Source of the DNA: Ignavibacterium sp.
GTDB taxonomy: Bacteria > Zixibacteria > MSB-5A5 > GN15 > PGXB01
DNA length: 64,000 nt
Direction: 5' to 3'
Assembly: GCA_020724775.1 (NCBI GenBank)
Contig: DYGG01000001.1
Coordinates: forward strand, 62,001 to 126,000
The notes beneath the pieces were generated by a model. That model saw only the letters and a program-made list of their open reading frames with translations, was not told the DNA's origin and made no database searches. A program made the position numbers and the translations under genes. Positions 506-10,477 of this stretch are shown piece after piece; within the stretch, counting starts at the first letter, position 1; every line of letters begins with the position of its first letter.

Positions 506-1315
506 ATGACTTCAGTCCCGTGTCCCGGGGCTAATGAATGGGACCTGTTTTTAATGGGCTCAGAATCGATAGACCGTGCCGCCTTGGAGCGGCATCTGGA
601 AAGTTGTCCTATCTGCCGCTTTCTAATTGAAAGAAGGCAGGAAGAACTGAAACAGTTTGCCTGCCGCTGGTCACAGCTGGATACGTCCCCCGTATTTCAT
701 CTTTATCAATGGCGGGGAGACCTTCTCTCCGGGGGCGGTTTGCCGGCCATTGCCGCCGAAGGTCTGAAACTGGAGGTCGGCTCCGAATCGACTACTTTAC
801 TTTCCACCGACCAGCGCATCATGCTGAAGGCGGTGCGTGACTCCCACACCCGCGAGGTCTGGCTTTATCTTATATCCGATGACCCGGCTCTCTACCAGAA
901 TGTCCTGGTCTGTCCCTTTGGCGGTGATGAATATATGACCGATGAGAAAGGGCGGGTCAATCTGGGTCGAATCCCCTGGCCTGAATCCGAGAATCTCACC
1001 GCCGAGGTGCGCGTTGCCCGGGCCCGTTTTTCACTCGTTCCGCTAAAAGATATTCCGGAGCCGGATGGGACTCTTCTTCTTTCCAGCCCGGATGGCGACC
1101 AGATCAGGATTTCGCTTCACGATACCGGAGCTGGAAAGGCGCTTCGACTCGAAATAGTGCCGAAAGAGACCGGCGGTCCCAGTGCTCCACTAAAGATTGC
1201 CGTCCGAGAAAAAGGCTCAAAAGAACTTGTTATGATTAAATCGGACCAGGGCAACCGGCTGGAACTGCCCCGTATGGACGGCCGCAATACTATCGAAATC
1301 TACCTCTTCACCTGA
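506..1315 (+). CDS. Zinc-finger (ZAS/zf-HC2-like) anti-sigma-like regulator, soluble
   Basis: A 269-residue protein whose N-terminus carries H30-x3-C34-x2-C37 ('HLESCPICR'), the zinc-binding signature of ZAS-domain anti-sigma factors. The rest (about 70-269) looks beta-rich, and there is no membrane segment, so a cytosolic regulator is inferred. The start is set by a strong AAGGAGG at 496-502 just before ATG 506. The gene ends 4 bp before the next one, which carries a Lon-like protease domain, so the two are very likely co-transcribed. No sigma factor is adjacent, so its partner is unknown. It has the same plan (N-terminal H-C-C finger, beta-rich tail) as the protein at 7158-7748. Confidence 0.6.
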   Translation: MTSVPCPGANEWDLFLMGSESIDRAALERHLESCPICRFLIERRQEELKQFACRWSQLDTSPVFHLYQWRGDLLSGGGLPAIAAEGLKLEVGSESTTLLSTDQRIMLKAVRDSHTREVWLYLISDDPALYQNVLVCPFGGDEYMTDEKGRVNLGRIPWPESENLTAEVRVARARFSLVPLKDIPEPDGTLLLSSPDGDQIRISLHDTGAGKALRLEIVPKETGGPSAPLKIAVREKGSKELVMIKSDQGNRLELPRMDGRNTIEIYLFT

Positions 1316-1319
1316 GGCT

Positions 1320-3491
1320 ATGCCGAACTTTCTGCAAATCGAATCCGAGAGCGAACGTCTGCGCCAGGCGCTGCGGCTGGCGCCGTCACCGGAACTGGAA
1401 ACGCTCTGCGCTCTGAAATTCTTTGCGGGACTGAAAGAAGAACTCCCTTCCTTTGTCGAGCCATATATCAAAGAATTCATTCCGAGATTGAGTGATGCCT
1501 CGCGGAAAGCCGACCCGCGAGAATTTCTTCCGGCTGATGCCGCGCAACTTTCAGGACTGCTGGAGTTTCTCGGCGGGCTTCCTGCCGGAATCTGCCCCGA
1601 AGACGACCTGGAGCGTCTGCGAATTTTTCATCGAAAAATCTCTGATTACCTTACTTCTGTCCGCAACGGCGCCATTGCTGTGGAGGCAGAAGATAAAGGA
1701 AACGGAATTCCGCTTAAGGCTCTTTTCGTCGAGCATTTCCCCGAACTTGGCTTGAGCCCGAGAGGACGAATCCTTATTCTTCGGGTCTGGGCGGAGAGAA
1801 TTTCTGCCAAAAATGAAATGGATGATGTCGATATCCGCAATCCGCTGCTGAAATCGAACGACTCTTTTCTCCGGCAGGCGCGGGATTCGGTTGCGGCAGC
1901 GCACCAATATCTGGAGCAGATTCATAATCTGCCGTCCCGACGTCGTTACCGAATCAATTTTTATGTTGACCATAACGGAGCCCGCTTCACCGGTGATTCG
2001 CTCGGGGTCGCCTTTGCCGTCGGAGCCATTGCCGCCATCGCCAGAATTGAAGTCCTCCGGGAGAGGTTTGACGTTTCACCTCTGGCGGTCTTTTCCGGGG
2101 CGCTTTCGGCCGAGGGCAAAATCGAGCCAATTGACACTGACGGACTGAAATTAAAAATCTACCGCGCCTTCCATTCCGGTCTGAAATATCTGGTGATACC
2201 GCGCGAACATATTGATGATTGCTGGGCTTTTCTCAAAGAACTGGAATCGCAGCATCCCGGTCGCAAATTGGAATTGTACGGCGCTGAAGACCTGCTCAGC
2301 GTGCTCTCCGACCCGCGGTTTGTGACCAGAAGCAAAGTCAGCCCGGTTTCATATCAGGCGCGGAAGACCGTCCAGGCTGTCCGTAACCCAAAAATCGAAA
2401 TTCCCACGCTGCTCGCGCTCATGTCACTACTTGCTTTCTTCTCCGTGAAATTGCTTACCCCCATCGAGAATGACAACCCGGTCAAATTCGTATTTGATGA
2501 AAATAACAAAGTCATTGACTTTTATAACTCTGGCGATACCCTTCTTTGGTCTCTCAAGACACCATGGACCGTGACGCAGCGCCTTGCCCAGGAATTAAAC
2601 ACCATCCTGAAGGACATAAATAAGGACGGCAAGAATGAAGTGCTTATATTGACTTTGGGCGCAGAAAGAACTCCGGAAATTGCCTGGTTTTACTGCTTTT
2701 CATTTGAGGGGGATACGCTGTTCAAACGATTTTGTATTATCCCGCATGAATATATCGTGGATACTCCTTATTCCGTTGATGGGGAATATATTAGGGTCTA
2801 TGAATATGGTGAGGAAGAGATTATTGTTACAACCGCCGCCACCCAAACCCCTATGGGTTCTTATGCTCGATTCTGGACTACCGACGGCGATTCCTTAGGT
2901 TGGTTCATAAACGCCGGGGGAAGCCACCCTTGCTTGGCCGATGACATCGGCAATGACGGCGACCTCGAAGTCTTCTTCCATAATTTCAATAACCCCTGTA
3001 GTTGTGCCGCACTCGCGATTGTCGACCCCGATTCGGCCTGGGGATGTTCTCCCCCTTATGACTCTACTGAGTCAAGGGACCGTTCTAAATTAAAACGCGG
3101 GTCGCAGGCTGCATATCTTCTTTTCCCGCAGACCGATGTCTCCTCAGCGTACGACCTTCCTTATAATAATCCCGGTAACGATGGTGTCTGGAAAACTGAA
3201 GACGGTTATGCCGTCTCTATCAGCGAATATAGCGATTCTGCAGGGAGAGGTTACTATATAATCTATCACTTCGACAAGGATTTGCGGGTTAAAATGGTAA
3301 TGCCGACCGACCAGTTCAGGAGACTCCGCGGTAGAACTATCCGGGAAGGGAAGGTGCCCGATATACCTTGGGATGATTACATCGCCCATCTTCTTGACAC
3401 CGTCACCTACTGGACCGATTCCGGCTGGGTGACCGAGGGGCAACTTCGGGCGGCCGAAAACTCAAAAAAATCTTCAAAAATCTCCAAATAA
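1320..3491 (+). CDS. Membrane protein with Lon-like (S16) protease domain and FG-GAP-like outer domain
   Basis: A 723-residue protein of unusual architecture. Residues 1-200 are a helical region I do not recognise. Residues about 207-330 resemble the Lon proteolytic domain: 'TGDSLGVAFAVGA' places S227 where Lon has its catalytic serine (DGPSAG), and 'DGLKLKIYRAFHSGLKYLVIP' (quoted in part: GLKLK, then YLVIP) places K277 as the catalytic lysine. A single membrane segment follows at about 362-380. The remainder, outside the membrane by inference, carries calcium-loop motifs 'DINKDGKNE' and 'DIGNDGDLE' typical of FG-GAP/VCBS propellers. There is no AAA+ ATPase domain, so it is not a Lon housekeeping protease. 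It follows the zinc-finger gene by 4 bp. A transmembrane sensor-protease is a plausible role, untested. Confidence 0.6.
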   Translation: MPNFLQIESESERLRQALRLAPSPELETLCALKFFAGLKEELPSFVEPYIKEFIPRLSDASRKADPREFLPADAAQLSGLLEFLGGLPAGICPEDDLERLRIFHRKISDYLTSVRNGAIAVEAEDKGNGIPLKALFVEHFPELGLSPRGRILILRVWAERISAKNEMDDVDIRNPLLKSNDSFLRQARDSVAAAHQYLEQIHNLPSRRRYRINFYVDHNGARFTGDSLGVAFAVGAIAAIARIEVLRERFDVSPLAVFSGALSAEGKIEPIDTDGLKLKIYRAFHSGLKYLVIPREHIDDCWAFLKELESQHPGRKLELYGAEDLLSVLSDPRFVTRSKVSPVSYQARKTVQAVRNPKIEIPTLLALMSLLAFFSVKLLTPIENDNPVKFVFDENNKVIDFYNSGDTLLWSLKTPWTVTQRLAQELNTILKDINKDGKNEVLILTLGAERTPEIAWFYCFSFEGDTLFKRFCIIPHEYIVDTPYSVDGEYIRVYEYGEEEIIVTTAATQTPMGSYARFWTTDGDSLGWFINAGGSHPCLADDIGNDGDLEVFFHNFNNPCSCAALAIVDPDSAWGCSPPYDSTESRDRSKLKRGSQAAYLLFPQTDVSSAYDLPYNNPGNDGVWKTEDGYAVSISEYSDSAGRGYYIIYHFDKDLRVKMVMPTDQFRRLRGRTIREGKVPDIPWDDYIAHLLDTVTYWTDSGWVTEGQLRAAENSKKSSKISK

Positions 3492-3496
3492 CCTCC

Positions 3497-3512
3497 GGCA
3501 GAATCCTCTGCC
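3497..3512 (+). terminator. Short stem-loop after the Lon-like gene
   Basis: GGCAGA-ATCC-TCTGCC lies a few bases past the TAA of the upstream gene. The stem is perfect, but there is no T-run, so termination here is only possible, not shown. Confidence 0.3.
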
Positions 3513-3600
3513 TGCCACTAATAGTCTAATAGATAATCAACCGGCCCTGTGGATACGGAGGGCCAATCAAAACAATCTAATTCATTGAGGGAGGTCTCCT

Positions 3601-6222
3601 ATGAGAGGAGTCGTTAGTAGGCTACACGTTGTGGTATTCACTTCAATCGTTAGTTTGATGGCAGTCTCTGTCAAGGCAGTTACGATCTCAGTAAAGTCTA
3701 TCCCTGAAGATGGTGTTGCCGTTTGGATAACACCTGCGGATAATTTAGGTAGGACAAATGGGATTACTCCTTTTAATTGCGAATATGACCTCAATGACAA
3801 TGTGACATTTACCGCTTCGAATCCGGCTCTGGGGCGTGCTTTTACTGCATGGTGGCAGAATTGCGGTGTTTACACTATCCAGCAGAATGCTACTATTGCC
3901 ATCACCGGCACGTTTACAATGACATGCGAGTATACCAAAGACGTGCCAACGGCCGTTAGTGCAAGTGGCCAGTGCGGTCAAATAAGGGTGACTTGGAATT
4001 CAGTGACAGGAGCAAACGGGTATTGCGTATATAGGGATGGTAATCCCTTGCCGTTGGCGTGCCCTACAGCATCACCATTTACTGACACCGATGTTGGCAC
4101 TGCTCAACATTGTTATCAGATTCAAGCTACCTTTGGGTGCTTCTACCCATCGGCGAAATCAGCATCAGCATGCGCAACAGCCGCTGCTCCGCTCGGTAGT
4201 GTTACGCTATTGAGCCCCCCGGATGACATTGAAAATCAGATACAGCCATTATTGCTCGATTGGCAAGACTTAATTGGTGCCACCCAATACCATCTGTCAA
4301 TTGACGACAATTCTGATTTTACGAGCCCCATAGTCGATGTGAATACAAATTCGTCAGACTATTATGCCACTGGTCTAGGCGATGGAGTTACTTACTACTG
4401 GCGCGTACGCGGCAATAATGCGTGTGGTTGGAGCGGTTGGAACAACCCTTGGTCTTTCACCACCATTTGTAATACACTTGGCCCCGTAACACTACTCTTA
4501 CCTCCGAATGGCGCGCCCGATTTGGAGCAGCCATTGTTCCTCGACTGGGAGCCCCTCAGCGGCTCGACCCAATATAATATTCAGGTTGATGACAATTATG
4601 ATTTTTCAAATCCTGAGGTGGACTATCAAACCGGTAATTCTGATTATAATTTGTCTGGGCTGGCGGTCGGCATCACCTATTATTGGCGAGTTAGGGGTTA
4701 CAATGGATGTGACTGGGGTGCATGGAGCGAAATCTTTGAATTTACTTTGCGATTTGCTCAGCCAAACAGCAGTTCTTTTTGTGATAGTTTTGAAAGTGGC
4801 TGGCTAGATGGTTGGACTATTGTACCAGGGGTGGGCGGGCTCCCCGAGCAGATAACATCACCAGTGCATAGTGGTGATTACGCACTTAGATTCCACAGCA
4901 ATGCATCCGGCAACTGTATCACTGCAATATATCGAAGTGACTTTGAAGCGAATTTAGGCGAATACAGCGCATATGTATACCAGACACATTCTCAGGCCGG
5001 TTTCGCAGTTTATATTCAAGTCCAGTTTCCTGGTACCTATCCATTCGGTAGTGATAATTATGAAATAGACTATCAGGCGGCAGACGCGTATGGGGGCGGC
5101 ATATTGGCGATCCACAAACGTCACAATAACTCATCTCAATTTTTAACATCAAAAGCGGCGCTATTTACGATGAATGAGTGGGTTTTTGTGTTTGCAAGGA
5201 GGCTAAATAATTCGACCCTTATCGCCGGGTATGAACGCCCCAATGGCTATCGTGATTCCATTATCTACGAAGACGTTTACCCAATTATTGCGCCTGGCAA
5301 GTTCGTAATTGCATCTTGCGCCGATTTCTATTCTACGGCTCACTTTTGGGACGACGTTTGCTTTGAATCAATATCTACAGATACGATTGTTGAATTCAGT
5401 ATAGACACGCTCTATTATTCTCGACCGGCAGGGCATGAATTTGATACAACCTTCTATATCAGAAACGAGTCTGATTTTCCCGTCGAGTGTATTATTGAAC
5501 ATACACCTTACATACCTTATTCAGTCTACTGCAGTTTGAGTGATATCTGTACTATTCCGGCGCACGATTCGATACCGGTAACCTTTGATGCCTTTACAGA
5601 AGGATGCTATCCCTATGTTGGAATGATAGACACCATTACAGTGTTGTTGTTCGTTGGTGGGAATGAGCGAGACGCGGTCATTGCTATTGAAACTGTGACA
5701 CTGAATCAGCCACCTTGTAATACGAAAATCTCACTGGTAAACGTAACAGATTCCATTAGGATTGGGGAGACTCTCATAATTGACTTCGAAGATGATTGTC
5801 CGCATGGTTTAGCGGAGGACTGCTTTCAGAGAATAGACGTTGCGTATTCTATCGACAGCATGGTCTCTTGGGTTCCAATAGATAGCAACATATATGTGAA
5901 TGGTTATGACTGGAGGATAGTCCCGGATACGTTTGGCGAGAAACTCTTTCTCAAGATAGAAGGTACAGACTGGTTTATGGTACCGGTCAATGATACAGCA
6001 GGCCCGTTTCCCCTCTATTACATGTGCGGCGATGCCAATGCCAACGGCTCTGTAAACATTCTGGATGTTACATTTCTCATTGCTTATCTATACAAAAACG
6101 AACAAGCCCCTAATCCTATTCAAGCGGGTGATGCCAACGGCAATGGGGTAGTTAATATACTTGACGCGACTTATCTCCTAAGTAAATTGTATAAAAGCGG
6201 TCCAGCACCTATCTGTCCCTAA
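3601..6222 (+). CDS. Secreted multidomain protein with FN3-like repeats and C-terminal dockerin
   Basis: An 873-residue exported protein. The N-terminus (to about residue 25, 'SVKAVT') looks like a signal peptide, and the start is supported by GAGGGAGG at 3588-3595. A cysteine-containing FN3-like domain (about 120-195) is followed by two near-duplicate FN3-like repeats, each ending in 'YYWRVRG' (near 262-269 and 361-367). A region beginning 'FCDSFESGW' resembles LamG or carbohydrate-binding domains. The last ~65 residues form a dockerin-type pair of calcium loops ('GDANANGSVNILD' and 'GDANGNGVVNILD'). No catalytic domain is recognised, so adhesion or scaffold binding is likely. The gene looks more AT-rich than its neighbours. 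No cohesin gene is visible in the window. Confidence 0.65.
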   Translation: MRGVVSRLHVVVFTSIVSLMAVSVKAVTISVKSIPEDGVAVWITPADNLGRTNGITPFNCEYDLNDNVTFTASNPALGRAFTAWWQNCGVYTIQQNATIAITGTFTMTCEYTKDVPTAVSASGQCGQIRVTWNSVTGANGYCVYRDGNPLPLACPTASPFTDTDVGTAQHCYQIQATFGCFYPSAKSASACATAAAPLGSVTLLSPPDDIENQIQPLLLDWQDLIGATQYHLSIDDNSDFTSPIVDVNTNSSDYYATGLGDGVTYYWRVRGNNACGWSGWNNPWSFTTICNTLGPVTLLLPPNGAPDLEQPLFLDWEPLSGSTQYNIQVDDNYDFSNPEVDYQTGNSDYNLSGLAVGITYYWRVRGYNGCDWGAWSEIFEFTLRFAQPNSSSFCDSFESGWLDGWTIVPGVGGLPEQITSPVHSGDYALRFHSNASGNCITAIYRSDFEANLGEYSAYVYQTHSQAGFAVYIQVQFPGTYPFGSDNYEIDYQAADAYGGGILAIHKRHNNSSQFLTSKAALFTMNEWVFVFARRLNNSTLIAGYERPNGYRDSIIYEDVYPIIAPGKFVIASCADFYSTAHFWDDVCFESISTDTIVEFSIDTLYYSRPAGHEFDTTFYIRNESDFPVECIIEHTPYIPYSVYCSLSDICTIPAHDSIPVTFDAFTEGCYPYVGMIDTITVLLFVGGNERDAVIAIETVTLNQPPCNTKISLVNVTDSIRIGETLIIDFEDDCPHGLAEDCFQRIDVAYSIDSMVSWVPIDSNIYVNGYDWRIVPDTFGEKLFLKIEGTDWFMVPVNDTAGPFPLYYMCGDANANGSVNILDVTFLIAYLYKNEQAPNPIQAGDANGNGVVNILDATYLLSKLYKSGPAPICP

Positions 6223-6258
6223 AAGTGCCGCTGCTGTCTCTTCTCTTGACTTGTTAAC

Positions 6259-6286
6259 GCGGCGGGTCGGCGAACCCGCCGCTTTT
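6259..6286 (+). terminator. Rho-independent terminator after the dockerin gene
   Basis: A perfect 9-bp GC-rich stem (GCGGCGGGT / ACCCGCCGC, 6-base loop) is followed by TTTTCT. It lies about 37 bp past the stop of the upstream gene. Confidence 0.8.
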
Positions 6287-6386
6287 CTGCGAGTCCTCGT
6301 AGATTCTTTCCGGCAAATCTGCCCTTTGGTCACTATTTATTATAAGGGGGGCAGGGAGCCCGCATCAACCGGGCTCGAGTAAATCG

Positions 6387-6424
6387 CCCGGCGGAGTTCG
6401 TGCTCGCTCCGCCGGGTTCTTCTT
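6387..6424 (+). terminator. Second strong stem-loop with T-rich tail
   Basis: A 10-bp stem CCCGGCGGAG / CTCCGCCGGG with a 10-base loop is followed by TTCTTCTT. Together with the terminator at 6259 it separates the two zinc-finger modules. The 319 bp between the genes hold only these two hairpins and the promoter at 6524. Confidence 0.65.
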
Positions 6425-6523
6425 ATCTCATCTCAAATCACCGCCATGCGCAAATTGCACCAGCATCAATTCTCATGATTAGCCCAAAACGGAATTTCGT
6501 AGTTCCCCGCTCGTTATTATCTA

Positions 6524-6551
6524 TTGACTTAACTGCCGATAATGGTATCTA
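6524..6551 (+). promoter_or_regulatory. Candidate sigma-70-type promoter for the ECF module
   Basis: TTGACT (6524-6529), a 16-base spacer and TATCTA (6546-6551) lie just upstream of the start at 6572. The ATG at 6542 would fall inside this promoter, which supports the start at 6572. Confidence 0.5.
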
Positions 6552-6571
6552 TATCGGCGGAGAAATCCAAT

Positions 6572-7144
6572 ATGGCCGTTCACAAATCTGACATCGAACT
6601 CTGGGAGGAAATTCTTCAAAATCGTCCCGAGTCCTGGAAAGAACTGGTAAGCCGTTATCAACGACTGGTTTACGCTGTGGCTACCCGTTCCGGGCTGTCG
6701 CTTGCCGATGCCGCTGATTGCTTCCAGCAAACCTGGGTGCTTCTCTACCAGAATCGCCGCAAACTAAAAGACCCCTCCCGAATCTCCGCCTGGCTGGTTA
6801 CCACCGCCAAGCGGGAAGCAATGCGGCTCAGCCGTCTTGTCGAAAAAGATTCCGGCGGCGAAGTTGATTTCGAGGAGCCGGACCCGTCGCCGCTGCCTGA
6901 CGTCGCCTTAGAGCGTCTCGAATGCCAGATACATCTTGAACTCGCCCTTAAGCAGATTGACTCTCGCTGCCGCCGGATACTGGAAGAGTTTTTCTTCGCT
7001 GCGGAAGAGGAGTCATATGAAGATATCGCCCGGAAACTGGGGTTTGCCACCAATAGTTTAGGACCCATCCGAAGGCGATGTCTGGAGAAGTTGAAAGAGA
7101 TTCTTATCAGCAACGGTTATCTGGGAGAACGAAAAACCGATTGA
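6572..7144 (+). CDS. ECF-type RNA polymerase sigma factor
   Basis: A 190-residue sigma-70 family protein with only regions 2 and 4, the extracytoplasmic-function layout. Region 2 includes 'RYQRLVYAVATRSGLSLADA' and 'DCFQQTWVLLYQN' (core-binding and -10 recognition). Region 4 includes 'YEDIARKLGFATNSLGPIRR' (helix-turn-helix for the -35). ATG 6572 is chosen over 6542 because GGCGGAGA precedes it at proper spacing and the upstream ATG lies inside the promoter. It begins a run with a zinc-finger protein, a TPR-CHAT protein and a secreted subtilisin, so it probably directs transcription under control of those neighbours. Confidence 0.85.
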   Translation: MAVHKSDIELWEEILQNRPESWKELVSRYQRLVYAVATRSGLSLADAADCFQQTWVLLYQNRRKLKDPSRISAWLVTTAKREAMRLSRLVEKDSGGEVDFEEPDPSPLPDVALERLECQIHLELALKQIDSRCRRILEEFFFAAEEESYEDIARKLGFATNSLGPIRRRCLEKLKEILISNGYLGERKTD

Positions 7145-7157
7145 ACCACTCTGTATT

Positions 7158-7748
7158 ATGAGACCGGTGAAGAAACATATGAAAGATATGCACTTTACAA
7201 GAAAAGAGTTGTTAGAAATGGCGCGGGATAAAAATAGAAAATTGCCCCGGCATCTAAAAGATTGTCCGGAATGTCGTCAGGAGTGGGAACTTCTGCAAGC
7301 ATTTCCGGTTGCGGGCCAACTGCCGCTGCCTGATGCCCCTTCCGGCTGGATTGAAAAGGCGGTGGCGCTCGGCAAGAAAGACCGCCTCCTCGGGAAACTC
7401 AAGACTCTGATAGCGGAGTTAACCTTTGACTCCTGGAAAATCCCTCAGCCGGTGGGAGTCCGCGGTGATGCGCTTCAGGACCAGCGACGTCTCCGCTTTC
7501 AAGCCGACAAAATCGGCGTTGATATCCGCGCCGAGCATGCTGATGAAGGCTGGGTCTTTGTCGGTCAACTAAGCGGCGTCGAAATCGGCGAGGCTGTCCT
7601 TAAAGTCGGGAAGAGAACTGTTCAACCCGACCCTCATGGGTTCTATCAATGGTCGAGCAAGACCCCTCCCGGCGAAATCTTTCTGCAGGCGGGAGAGGCG
7701 TCAATAAAACTGCCCAAAATCAAATGGACGAAGAGCAAACCGAGATAG
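7158..7748 (+). CDS. Zinc-finger anti-sigma-like protein next to ECF sigma factor
   Basis: A 196-residue soluble protein with H32-x3-C36-x2-C39 ('HLKDCPECR') near the N-terminus, the zinc motif of ZAS-type anti-sigma factors. Residues about 125-190 ('VFVGQLSGVEIGEAVLKV', 'DPHGFYQW', 'PPGEIFLQ') look like a small Ig-like or carboxypeptidase-regulatory-like beta fold. There is no membrane segment. It starts 13 bp after the sigma gene and its end overlaps the CHAT gene by 25 bp, strong evidence for co-expression. The true start could be 7158, 7179 or 7188, since none has a clear Shine-Dalgarno. Role as the cognate anti-sigma factor is inferred from position and the zinc motif. Confidence 0.65.
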   Translation: MRPVKKHMKDMHFTRKELLEMARDKNRKLPRHLKDCPECRQEWELLQAFPVAGQLPLPDAPSGWIEKAVALGKKDRLLGKLKTLIAELTFDSWKIPQPVGVRGDALQDQRRLRFQADKIGVDIRAEHADEGWVFVGQLSGVEIGEAVLKVGKRTVQPDPHGFYQWSSKTPPGEIFLQAGEASIKLPKIKWTKSKPR

Positions 7749-10477
7749 CGGCGCGACTGTTCCTCCGAAGGGGAAGAGCGGTCGGTATTTCTGAGCAGGA
7801 ATTAGCGCGGGGCTGCGAGAATTTAATTCAGAAAGCCTCGCGGACGTCTCTTGAAGAGGCTCTCAAATTAGCGCGCCGATTTGCTGCCATTGCCCGTCGT
7901 CATTCTCCCGATATGCAGTTGACTGCCGCCCGGGCGGTGGGACGGCTCTCTCATATGAGCGGTCACCATCGTGATGCCCTGCGCGCCTATCTTGCCGCTC
8001 GCCGCCTGTCCGGAAAATCGCCCCTGGTCCGCGCCCGAATAGACCGTGCCCTCGCCGATGTCTATCTCTATCTGGGCGACTATAATAAAGCCAGGCATTC
8101 GGCCCGTAGGGCGATAACCGCCTTCAAGAATCTCAAATCAGAGAACGACTGGATTCAGGCAAGAGTAAACTACGCCAATATTCTCCATCGTCAGGACCGG
8201 CATCGCGATGCGGAAAAAATCTATCACCAGGCGGCGAAATTTTTCGAGGCAAACAATAACCGCCTGGCGCTGGCGCGATGTTACTACAATCGCGCTAACG
8301 CCCTCCTGCAACTGTTTGATACCGCTACCGCCGAAAGACTCTACCGCGAATCAGAAAAGATTTACACCGAAGCCGGCTGCGGGCTTGACGCCAATGACGC
8401 CCGTTATGGACTGGCTTGGTTGTGGATGCTGACCGGCAAATTCCATCAGGCGCTGTTGGAACTTGCCGCCTGCGAAAAAATATATCGCGACGGGGGAGAC
8501 CATCGGGGCGAAGCCCTCTGCGCGCTGGACCGAGCCGAAGTCTATCTGGGGCTGGGGCTGAACCATGATGCCTTCGAAATTTCCGCTCTTGCCGAGAATA
8601 AATTCGCCGCTCTCGGTCTGCAATATGAACAGAGCAAGGCGTCACTTTTTCGGGCGCAAGCGGCGGTCAGAATTGGACGAAAATCGGAGGCCGCTAAAGC
8701 CACCCGGCGGGCATTAAAAGGATTTACCAGCGAAGAAAACGGTGGGTTCCTCGGCGTCAGCCAACTGATAGCGGCGGAATTGACACCCGCTAACTCTGAT
8801 TCAACCGGACGAATCAGGCACTTAAATGATGCCCGCAGGAATTTTTCTCGAGCCCAACTTCCTCTCTGGGAAGCAATCTGCGACCTGCGCCTCAGTTATG
8901 AGAAATCGTTAACTAATCGGGCGGTGAAGCGCTTAAAGCGGAACCGCGCTTTAAGGGAGATGCCGCATCTGTCAATTGCCTGGCAGACCCGTTTGGGAGA
9001 ACTGAAACAAGCGCAAGGTGACCTTACCGCGGCGCGACGTCACTGGGAAACCGCCGCCGAAACCCTCGACCTGCTTCGGGCGCAACTTCCACCTCTCGAC
9101 CTGCGCTCCGCTTTCGCCCGCGCTCATAATTCGCCGCATCGCAAACTAATCGCCCTGGAACTGCGCGAAAACCCAATGCGGGCCGCCGTCTGGTCGGAAC
9201 GCTTCAAAACCGCGGGTATCTGGGCGCCGCTAATCCCGGAATCCGAAAATTCGTCAGATATTACCGGCATTCAGAGAAATCTCGGAGTTCTGGCTCGTCA
9301 GGTTGCGGCGATGTCTCACCAGATTTATGACGGGAAAGGAAAGCGCGGCTTTACCGCGGCAACACACCAGGCGGCGCTTAATCATTTACGTCGCGAAATC
9401 CGTGAATCAATGCTCGCCTGCGAACCGGAATCGGCGCAATATCCTTTCGCGCCGGAACAACTGGCTACTACTTTCAGTCAAATCTCATCCGAACATCCGG
9501 TGGTGCAGTTTCATCTGCAGGATGAAGATATCATCATATTTCTTCATCGAAATGGAGCCGTGGAAACCCATCGGATAGAAAAGGGGCGGATTCGTCTGCA
9601 GGAGATTCTACTTCGCTGGCGCTTTCTGCTTGAATCGGAACTTCTTGCCGGTTATCTTACTTCCTCAAGAGATTTTCAATCGGAGCGGTCGCTCCTTTCC
9701 GATCTGGGGAAAATGCTCTGGGCGCCGCTCCGGTTGGACAATGCAAATCATCGAATCCTGATTATTCCCGAAGGAGAATTAAGCAATATCCCCTGGGCAG
9801 CGCTGCATTACGACGGCCGCTATCTCGCCGACCGCTTTAATTTCATTATTGCCCCCAGTTTGAGGCACTATATGAATGCCCGAAAGGTATATTCAACTTC
9901 TTCTCGCTGGCATCTTTTCCAGGGGGCATCGGGCAATATCCCCCATGTCTCTGATGAATTGGAATCTTTGCTGGCTCAAATTAGCGGTGAAGCCGCTCTT
10001 TCTTCGCCCTGTCGCCGCAGCGATATTATCAATGCCAGAGAGGCGGCGGTCTGGCACTATTCCGGTCACGCCCAATTCTGCGCCGATAATCCTTTTTACT
10101 CGTTTCTGGCGCTTGAAGATGGACCACTGTTTGCAGCCGACCTCCGCGCCAAGAAATGCCGGGTCAATTTGGTCACCCTGGCAGGCTGCCGCTCCGGAGA
10201 GCAACTGGTGCTTCCGGGTGATGAAGCGACCGGGATGGTGCGGTCTCTGATGGAAATGGGGGCGCGAAACATAATCGCTGCGCTTTGGCCTCTTTCTGAT
10301 GAAAGTGCTTCCTTTTGGATGATTTCTTTTTATAATAAAATGAGAGAGAGTAACTCTATTCTTCAGTCGGCCCGATGGGCTGCCGGCAAAGTCAGGGAAA
10401 AGTTCCCCTCGGCTTATCACTGGGCAGCCTTCTCCGTATTCGGGGCGGGTGACATGGGAGGTGCCTATGACAAGTAA
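7724..10477 (+). CDS. TPR-CHAT protein (caspase-like cysteine protease domain)
   Basis: A 917-residue protein. Residues about 20-470 are helical repeats of TPR type (for example 'ARVNYANILHRQDRHRDAEK', 'ALARCYYNRANALLQ'). The C-terminal ~300 residues are a CHAT domain of the caspase/separase clan: H782 in 'HYSGHA' and C822 in 'LAGCRSG' match the catalytic dyad, and 'LIIPEGELSNIPWAAL' and 'NIIAALWPLSD' are typical flanking motifs. The frame opens at 7649, but ATG 7724 gives only a 25-bp overlap with the zinc-finger gene and is preferred. Both catalytic residues are present, so it is probably an active protease. The sigma/zinc-finger neighbours suggest an anti-sigma or similar regulator as substrate, which is inference. 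Confidence 0.85.
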   Translation: MDEEQTEIAARLFLRRGRAVGISEQELARGCENLIQKASRTSLEEALKLARRFAAIARRHSPDMQLTAARAVGRLSHMSGHHRDALRAYLAARRLSGKSPLVRARIDRALADVYLYLGDYNKARHSARRAITAFKNLKSENDWIQARVNYANILHRQDRHRDAEKIYHQAAKFFEANNNRLALARCYYNRANALLQLFDTATAERLYRESEKIYTEAGCGLDANDARYGLAWLWMLTGKFHQALLELAACEKIYRDGGDHRGEALCALDRAEVYLGLGLNHDAFEISALAENKFAALGLQYEQSKASLFRAQAAVRIGRKSEAAKATRRALKGFTSEENGGFLGVSQLIAAELTPANSDSTGRIRHLNDARRNFSRAQLPLWEAICDLRLSYEKSLTNRAVKRLKRNRALREMPHLSIAWQTRLGELKQAQGDLTAARRHWETAAETLDLLRAQLPPLDLRSAFARAHNSPHRKLIALELRENPMRAAVWSERFKTAGIWAPLIPESENSSDITGIQRNLGVLARQVAAMSHQIYDGKGKRGFTAATHQAALNHLRREIRESMLACEPESAQYPFAPEQLATTFSQISSEHPVVQFHLQDEDIIIFLHRNGAVETHRIEKGRIRLQEILLRWRFLLESELLAGYLTSSRDFQSERSLLSDLGKMLWAPLRLDNANHRILIIPEGELSNIPWAALHYDGRYLADRFNFIIAPSLRHYMNARKVYSTSSRWHLFQGASGNIPHVSDELESLLAQISGEAALSSPCRRSDIINAREAAVWHYSGHAQFCADNPFYSFLALEDGPLFAADLRAKKCRVNLVTLAGCRSGEQLVLPGDEATGMVRSLMEMGARNIIAALWPLSDESASFWMISFYNKMRESNSILQSARWAAGKVREKFPSAYHWAAFSVFGAGDMGGAYDK

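Follow-up and report, generated by a model that had tools for sequence, protein, structure and literature searches.

Does one bacterial protein join sensing outside the cell to proteolysis inside it? The question arises from positions 506-3491 of the window, the stretch of 64,000 nucleotides analyzed here, for which an initial annotation had proposed two adjacent genes: a zinc-finger regulator of anti-sigma type and a Lon-type protease domain fused to a membrane helix and an FG-GAP-like outer domain. Both open reading frames are present, at 506-1315 (269 aa) and 1320-3491 (723 aa), separated by 4 bp. The gene set exceeds these coordinates, however, as one gene upstream (A) and one downstream (D) belong to the same unit. 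We refer to the two annotated genes as B and C; the features of the unit are as follows.

1-377, + strand: 3' end of gene A (whole gene at L033:11343-12377, G000:C17:61343-62377)
506-1315, + strand: gene B, 269 aa, soluble, with a ZAS domain at about aa 1-55 followed by a C-terminal part that is beta-rich by eye
593-616, + strand: zinc motif of gene B, H30-x3-C34-x2-C37, invariant in 24 sequences
1320-3491, + strand: gene C, transmembrane Lon-type protein, 723 aa
1320-1664, + strand: helical N-terminal domain of C, aa 1-115 (AlphaFold2 helices)
1707-2339, + strand: Lon (S16) proteolytic domain of C, aa 130-340
1998-2000, + strand: predicted catalytic serine S227 of C, in TGDSLG (LonB-type motif), aligned with the Lon serine
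2154-2156, + strand: predicted catalytic lysine K279 of C, aligned with the Lon lysine
2388-2456, + strand: membrane helix of C, aa 357-379 (hydrophobic in all 33 homologues; AlphaFold2 helix 357-379)
2469-3434, + strand: FG-GAP/propeller-like ectodomain of C, aa 384-705 (profile A5; the same domain occurs on kinases)
3601-6222, + strand: gene D, encoding a secreted protein in which Pfam identifies fn3-type domains and a dockerin

The Lon-type domain of gene C

The C protein consists, in order, of a helical N-terminal domain, a Lon (S16) domain, a single membrane helix and the ectodomain. Taken as a single sequence, C matches the P domain of A. fulgidus LonB with an E-value of 3.2e-5 (phmmer), and a profile of the C family, made from 29 homologues, matches Lon chains from all parts of the PDB, with E-values down to 1.4e-5, as well as the ordinary LonA genes of Zixibacteria (E about 1e-6). 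On the strength of these three kinds of match we class C as a Lon homologue, as the initial annotation had done, despite its scores of 11-17 bits against the curated Pfam Lon_C cut-off of 21.1. Neither NCBIfam nor PADLOC yielded a closer family for the unit. The predicted structure agrees: an AlphaFold2 model from 29 sequences (pLDDT 87.5) is S16-like, and its best domain-size matches in Foldseek are isolated Lon proteolytic domains, with TM-scores of 0.78-0.80 and rmsd values of 3.5-4 Å. These include the human Lon P domain 6x27_D (TM-score 0.80 of target, rmsd 3.5 Å) and 6wys_B (0.78 of target).

The catalytic dyad had been placed at S227 and K277, of which the serine stands and the lysine moves by two residues. 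S227 is invariant in 32/32 homologues and aligns with the serine of GPSAG in the LonA of the same genome; K279 is invariant in 33/33 and aligns with the second lysine of GLKEK in that LonA, whereas position 277 is a lysine in only 9 of the 33. Both dyad residues are retained in C proteins down to about 23% identity, the glycines around them are invariant too, and the serine motif of the family, TGDS[LI]G, is LonB-like (GDS type). These patterns bear on an alternative in which the Lon domain has no catalytic role and serves the receptor for oligomerisation or binding, C signalling allosterically and not by proteolysis. The unmet Lon_C cut-off marks the domain as divergent and would suit such a role, but an enzyme that had become inactive should not have kept its dyad and the surrounding glycines, and we consider this alternative improbable. 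We instead favor an active Ser/Lys protease as the predicted function of the N-terminal part of C.

This protease would work without a motor: no AAA match was found in C with Pfam, as the initial annotation had also concluded. Among 33 C proteins a single Walker A-like pattern occurs (in L011), which we read as a chance match in its ectodomain. A remnant of an AAA+ module in the N-terminus was also considered and rejected; Foldseek aligns some 320 columns of the model to Lon ATPase-protease chains at rmsd values of about 10-16 Å, meaning that only the P domain of C is matched. In one clade the N-domain appears TPR-like by eye.

Two loci carry C in altered form. In L128 (7250-9654) it is split into two open reading frames with a 4-bp overlap, one for aa 1-130 with the helical N-domain and one for the remainder from the Lon domain onward. 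In L065 (5563-7143, genome bin295) a shortened C comprises the Lon domain and membrane helix and most of the ectodomain is absent; no gene A was found nearby.

Topology and the outer domain

In all 33 homologues the strongest hydrophobic stretch of C lies between the Lon and C-terminal domains, giving the one membrane helix that had been annotated. The 20 residues preceding it contain 4-7 Lys/Arg and 0-1 Asp/Glu across the 33 proteins, and this positive-inside bias, seen in every one of them, places the Lon domain in the cytoplasm and the C-terminal domain outside. We regard it as very probable that C has the architecture of a single-pass transmembrane receptor-protease.

For the ectodomain of the window's protein alone, the Pfam FG-GAP match stays below cut-off (E 0.04). 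The profile of the ectodomain family (A5) matches FG-GAP propellers, namely YesW at an E-value of 8e-7 and integrin alpha FG-GAP more weakly, so that the FG-GAP similarity first proposed from the single protein is clear at the level of the family. The ectodomain also contains a DxxxDGxxE loop around aa 432-440.

The same ectodomain is fused to a HATPase_c domain (E 5e-13 to 3e-8) in four histidine-kinase-type proteins of related genomes:

L118, 1616-3667: histidine-kinase-type protein with C-type ectodomain
L119, 3727-5805: the same type
L120, 214-2292: the same type
L121, 87-2195: the same type, in the order kinase-helix-ectodomain

Profile A3, which recovers these proteins at E-values of 2e-35 (L118) to 5e-14, was built from Lon proteins only, and the match is therefore not circular. 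In all four, a membrane helix directly precedes the ectodomain, and the order in L121 is identical to that of C with Lon in the place of the kinase. In other words, helix and ectodomain are common to both kinds of protein, and the output is a HATPase_c kinase in one and Lon in the other. Because a kinase must be cytoplasmic, the four proteins independently put the ectodomain outside. The Lon domain of C occupies the position that the kinase holds in L118-L121, and the use of the same outer domain with an accepted signalling output is new evidence that supports a sensing role. These kinase-fused homologues lend independent support to the direct connection between sensing outside and proteolysis inside that the initial annotation had raised.

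Gene order and the partner genes

We searched 133 genomes of Zixibacteria (Candidatus Zixiibacteriota), the phylum to which the window belongs, and found C homologues with the Lon or N-terminal part in about 36 of them (hand count), and gene A in 38. The two occur together in 34 genomes, A alone in 4, C alone in 2 and neither in 93 (Fisher P 8e-25, a value that overstates independence, as the genomes are related). The genes stand on one strand in the order A, B, C and nearly always D, which is constant in loci with enough flank, and B and C are 4, 0 or -4 bp apart in many loci. Conservation of this kind across genomes at 23-42% identity excludes chance. A scan of 84,980 species, which rests on a single motif and may miss relatives, returned 16 relatives: Zixibacteria, MAG bacteria and one Abyssobacteria-labelled contig. 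The C family is essentially confined to one phylum, Zixibacteria. The contig, labelled Candidatus Abyssobacteria SURF_17, carries a complete A-B-C set (L058, 3429-7737) with at most about 39% identity to the others, for which transfer or mis-binning is possible.

A second type of unit lies close by. Positions 6542-10477 of the window encode an ECF sigma factor (6542-7144), a ZAS-type protein (7158-7748) and a TPR-CHAT caspase-like protein (7649-10477), and this unit is also found in the sister genome (L034). In L035 (about 2356-6600, G051), a different ECF-like sigma factor, a membrane-spanning ZAS-type protein and a TPR-CHAT protein stand upstream of A-B-C. In two lineages, then, a CHAT set is found near the Lon set, on different sides.

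Gene B scores below the Pfam cut-off for zf-HC2 (E 0.003). The top three PDB matches of its profile (A2) are weak in score, but each is an anti-sigma domain or carries that annotation: RsiW (E 0.0018), 3hug_B (E 0.0055) and DdvA. Together with the invariant zinc motif, they support the anti-sigma-like zinc-finger partner that had been described. No membrane helix was found in any B homologue. As a control for the usual company of ZAS domains, we considered the other four matches of the B profile in the same genome, each of which adjoins an ECF sigma gene. In the A-B-C unit it is gene A that stands at the sigma position.

The product of gene A is helical and about 345 aa long (AlphaFold2 pLDDT 86); it belongs to no Pfam family, and its model has no PDB fold match under an E-value of 1 in Foldseek. 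A divergent sigma factor, suggested by its position and by eye, was rejected for want of Pfam, Foldseek or hhalign support: against sigma-70, hhalign gave a probability of at most 1.2%, compared to 98.3% for the positive control RpoD/FliA-ECF. No cognate sigma factor was therefore recognized beside B. In one locus (L126, 4199-6228, genome G117), A and B occur without C, followed by genes on the opposite strand.

One could suppose that C is a receptor protease, but that B holds an ECF sigma factor encoded elsewhere, A being a separate effector or adaptor. The ZAS domain of B and the 15 sigma-type genes in the genome are compatible with this, as is the ECF sigma gene 3 kb downstream (6542-7144). 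That sigma gene has its own ZAS partner (7158-7748), however, and in other genomes the Lon unit has no conserved sigma neighbour; we think a dispersed sigma factor unlikely and prefer A as the probable partner of B.

Across loci, we took as gene D the nearest gene downstream that encodes 200 aa or more. Its position is conserved and its domain content variable. Of 18 loci, all have D on the strand of the unit and 17 show a hydrophobic N-terminus; dockerin, T9SS-tail or FG-GAP patterns, crude as these are, occur in 14/18 D proteins versus 6/88 other neighbours (P 9e-10). With a predicted exported protein adjoining C in nearly all loci, C might serve in the membrane to process exported proteins, D among them, or to control their quality. 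Such a role is at odds with a Lon domain that both the charge rule and the kinase homologues place in the cytoplasm, and it leaves the ZAS protein B and gene A unexplained. We hold it to be quite improbable, and retain the receptor protease as the preferred reading.

Proposed pathway and relation to known systems

The explanation that we slightly favor for the whole takes C for a receptor protease that, on a signal from outside, cuts B, frees a partner (probably A) and thereby controls D. The ectodomain would sense something outside the cytoplasmic membrane, and the cytoplasmic Lon domain, having no AAA+ motor to unfold proteins, would be confined to limited cleavage of proteins that are specific targets or flexible. 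Its most likely target is B, the soluble ZAS protein whose gene lies immediately upstream, and we give a pathway through B an even chance. Cleavage of B would free or inactivate the partner that B holds, most likely A, and would in this way alter the expression of D and perhaps of other surface proteins; D could belong to the response or could itself be what is sensed. The domains, the invariant dyad, the topology by charge, the gene order and the exchange of Lon for a kinase on one ectodomain are observed, and the proteolytic activity, the signal, the substrate, the partner and the output are our predictions. Against this explanation we count that the unit contains no sigma-70 gene, that A has no recognizable fold or family, and that in genome G117 one such locus carries A and B but lacks C.

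In the known forms of proteolytic signalling in bacteria, the target is typically an anti-sigma factor that spans the membrane and is cut stepwise, and in regulated proteolysis of the RseA/RsiW type an outside signal is relayed via anti-sigma destruction. There the membrane-spanning member is the anti-sigma factor, cut in steps; in the C unit it is the protease, and the ZAS protein is soluble. By analogy, the closest working counterpart is the type III CRISPR system CalpL/CalpT/CalpS, in which the sensor-gated Lon CalpL acts on the anti-sigma factor CalpT (PMC11417357). It has in common with C a Lon-type protease with a sensor on the same chain and an anti-sigma or anti-sigma-like partner. The two differ in that CalpL senses cA4 through SAVED inside the cell, whereas the predicted sensor of C is outside, of FG-GAP type, and joined via a membrane helix; in that B does not resemble CalpT, which contains a MazF-like fragment (PMC9704534); and in that Calp includes the ECF sigma factor CalpS and the C unit no sigma gene. 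The shared pairing of a protease with an anti-sigma-like partner (PMC11417357), and the sigma-ZAS-TPR-CHAT set nearby in two lineages, could suggest that the C unit is a defence system like Calp or the CHAT conflict systems. Yet the unit has no PADLOC match and no SAVED or CARF domain, and its near-confinement to one phylum, constant gene order and exported partner gene also speak against defence, which we judge very improbable.

Among Lon-type proteases, the nearest membrane-anchored Lon domain without AAA+ is YlbL of Bacillus subtilis (PMC6051672), but its Lon domain is thought to lie outside the cell, it carries a PDZ domain, and it has neither an outer sensor of the C type nor an anti-sigma partner. 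MtaLonC (TTC1975) is likewise ATP-independent, as C is predicted to be; lacking a working motor, it degrades unfolded or unstructured substrates (PMC3391209). Unlike C, it is a hexamer with a degenerate AAA-like part and without membrane helix or ectodomain. By sequence, the closest P domains to that of C, with a serine motif of the same GDS type, belong to archaeal LonB and the Bacillus LonB-type proteases; these have an AAA+ motor, and in archaeal LonB the membrane segments lie inside the AAA+ module (PMC3391209). Given that its function is predicted from sequence and model, we file C as a putative variant of the AAA-less Lon proteases and not as a separate category. The unit is real and conserved, and its architecture is undescribed in the literature we searched, which covered few subscription papers.

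We tentatively propose, at somewhat less than even confidence, that such proteins form a new class of transmembrane receptors, for which we suggest the name receptor Lon protease. In these, an outside sensor would directly gate a cytoplasmic Ser/Lys protease on the same polypeptide, which would signal by cutting a soluble ZAS protein and so releasing a partner not of the sigma-70 type. If this is true, a receptor with a protease as its inside half would provide a one-protein path from an outside signal to proteolysis, and Lon domains would be exchangeable with kinases as outputs on one sensor. C would then work as receptor kinases do, with proteolysis in place of phosphorylation, within a conserved and testable four-gene unit that has the uncharacterised protein A at its center.
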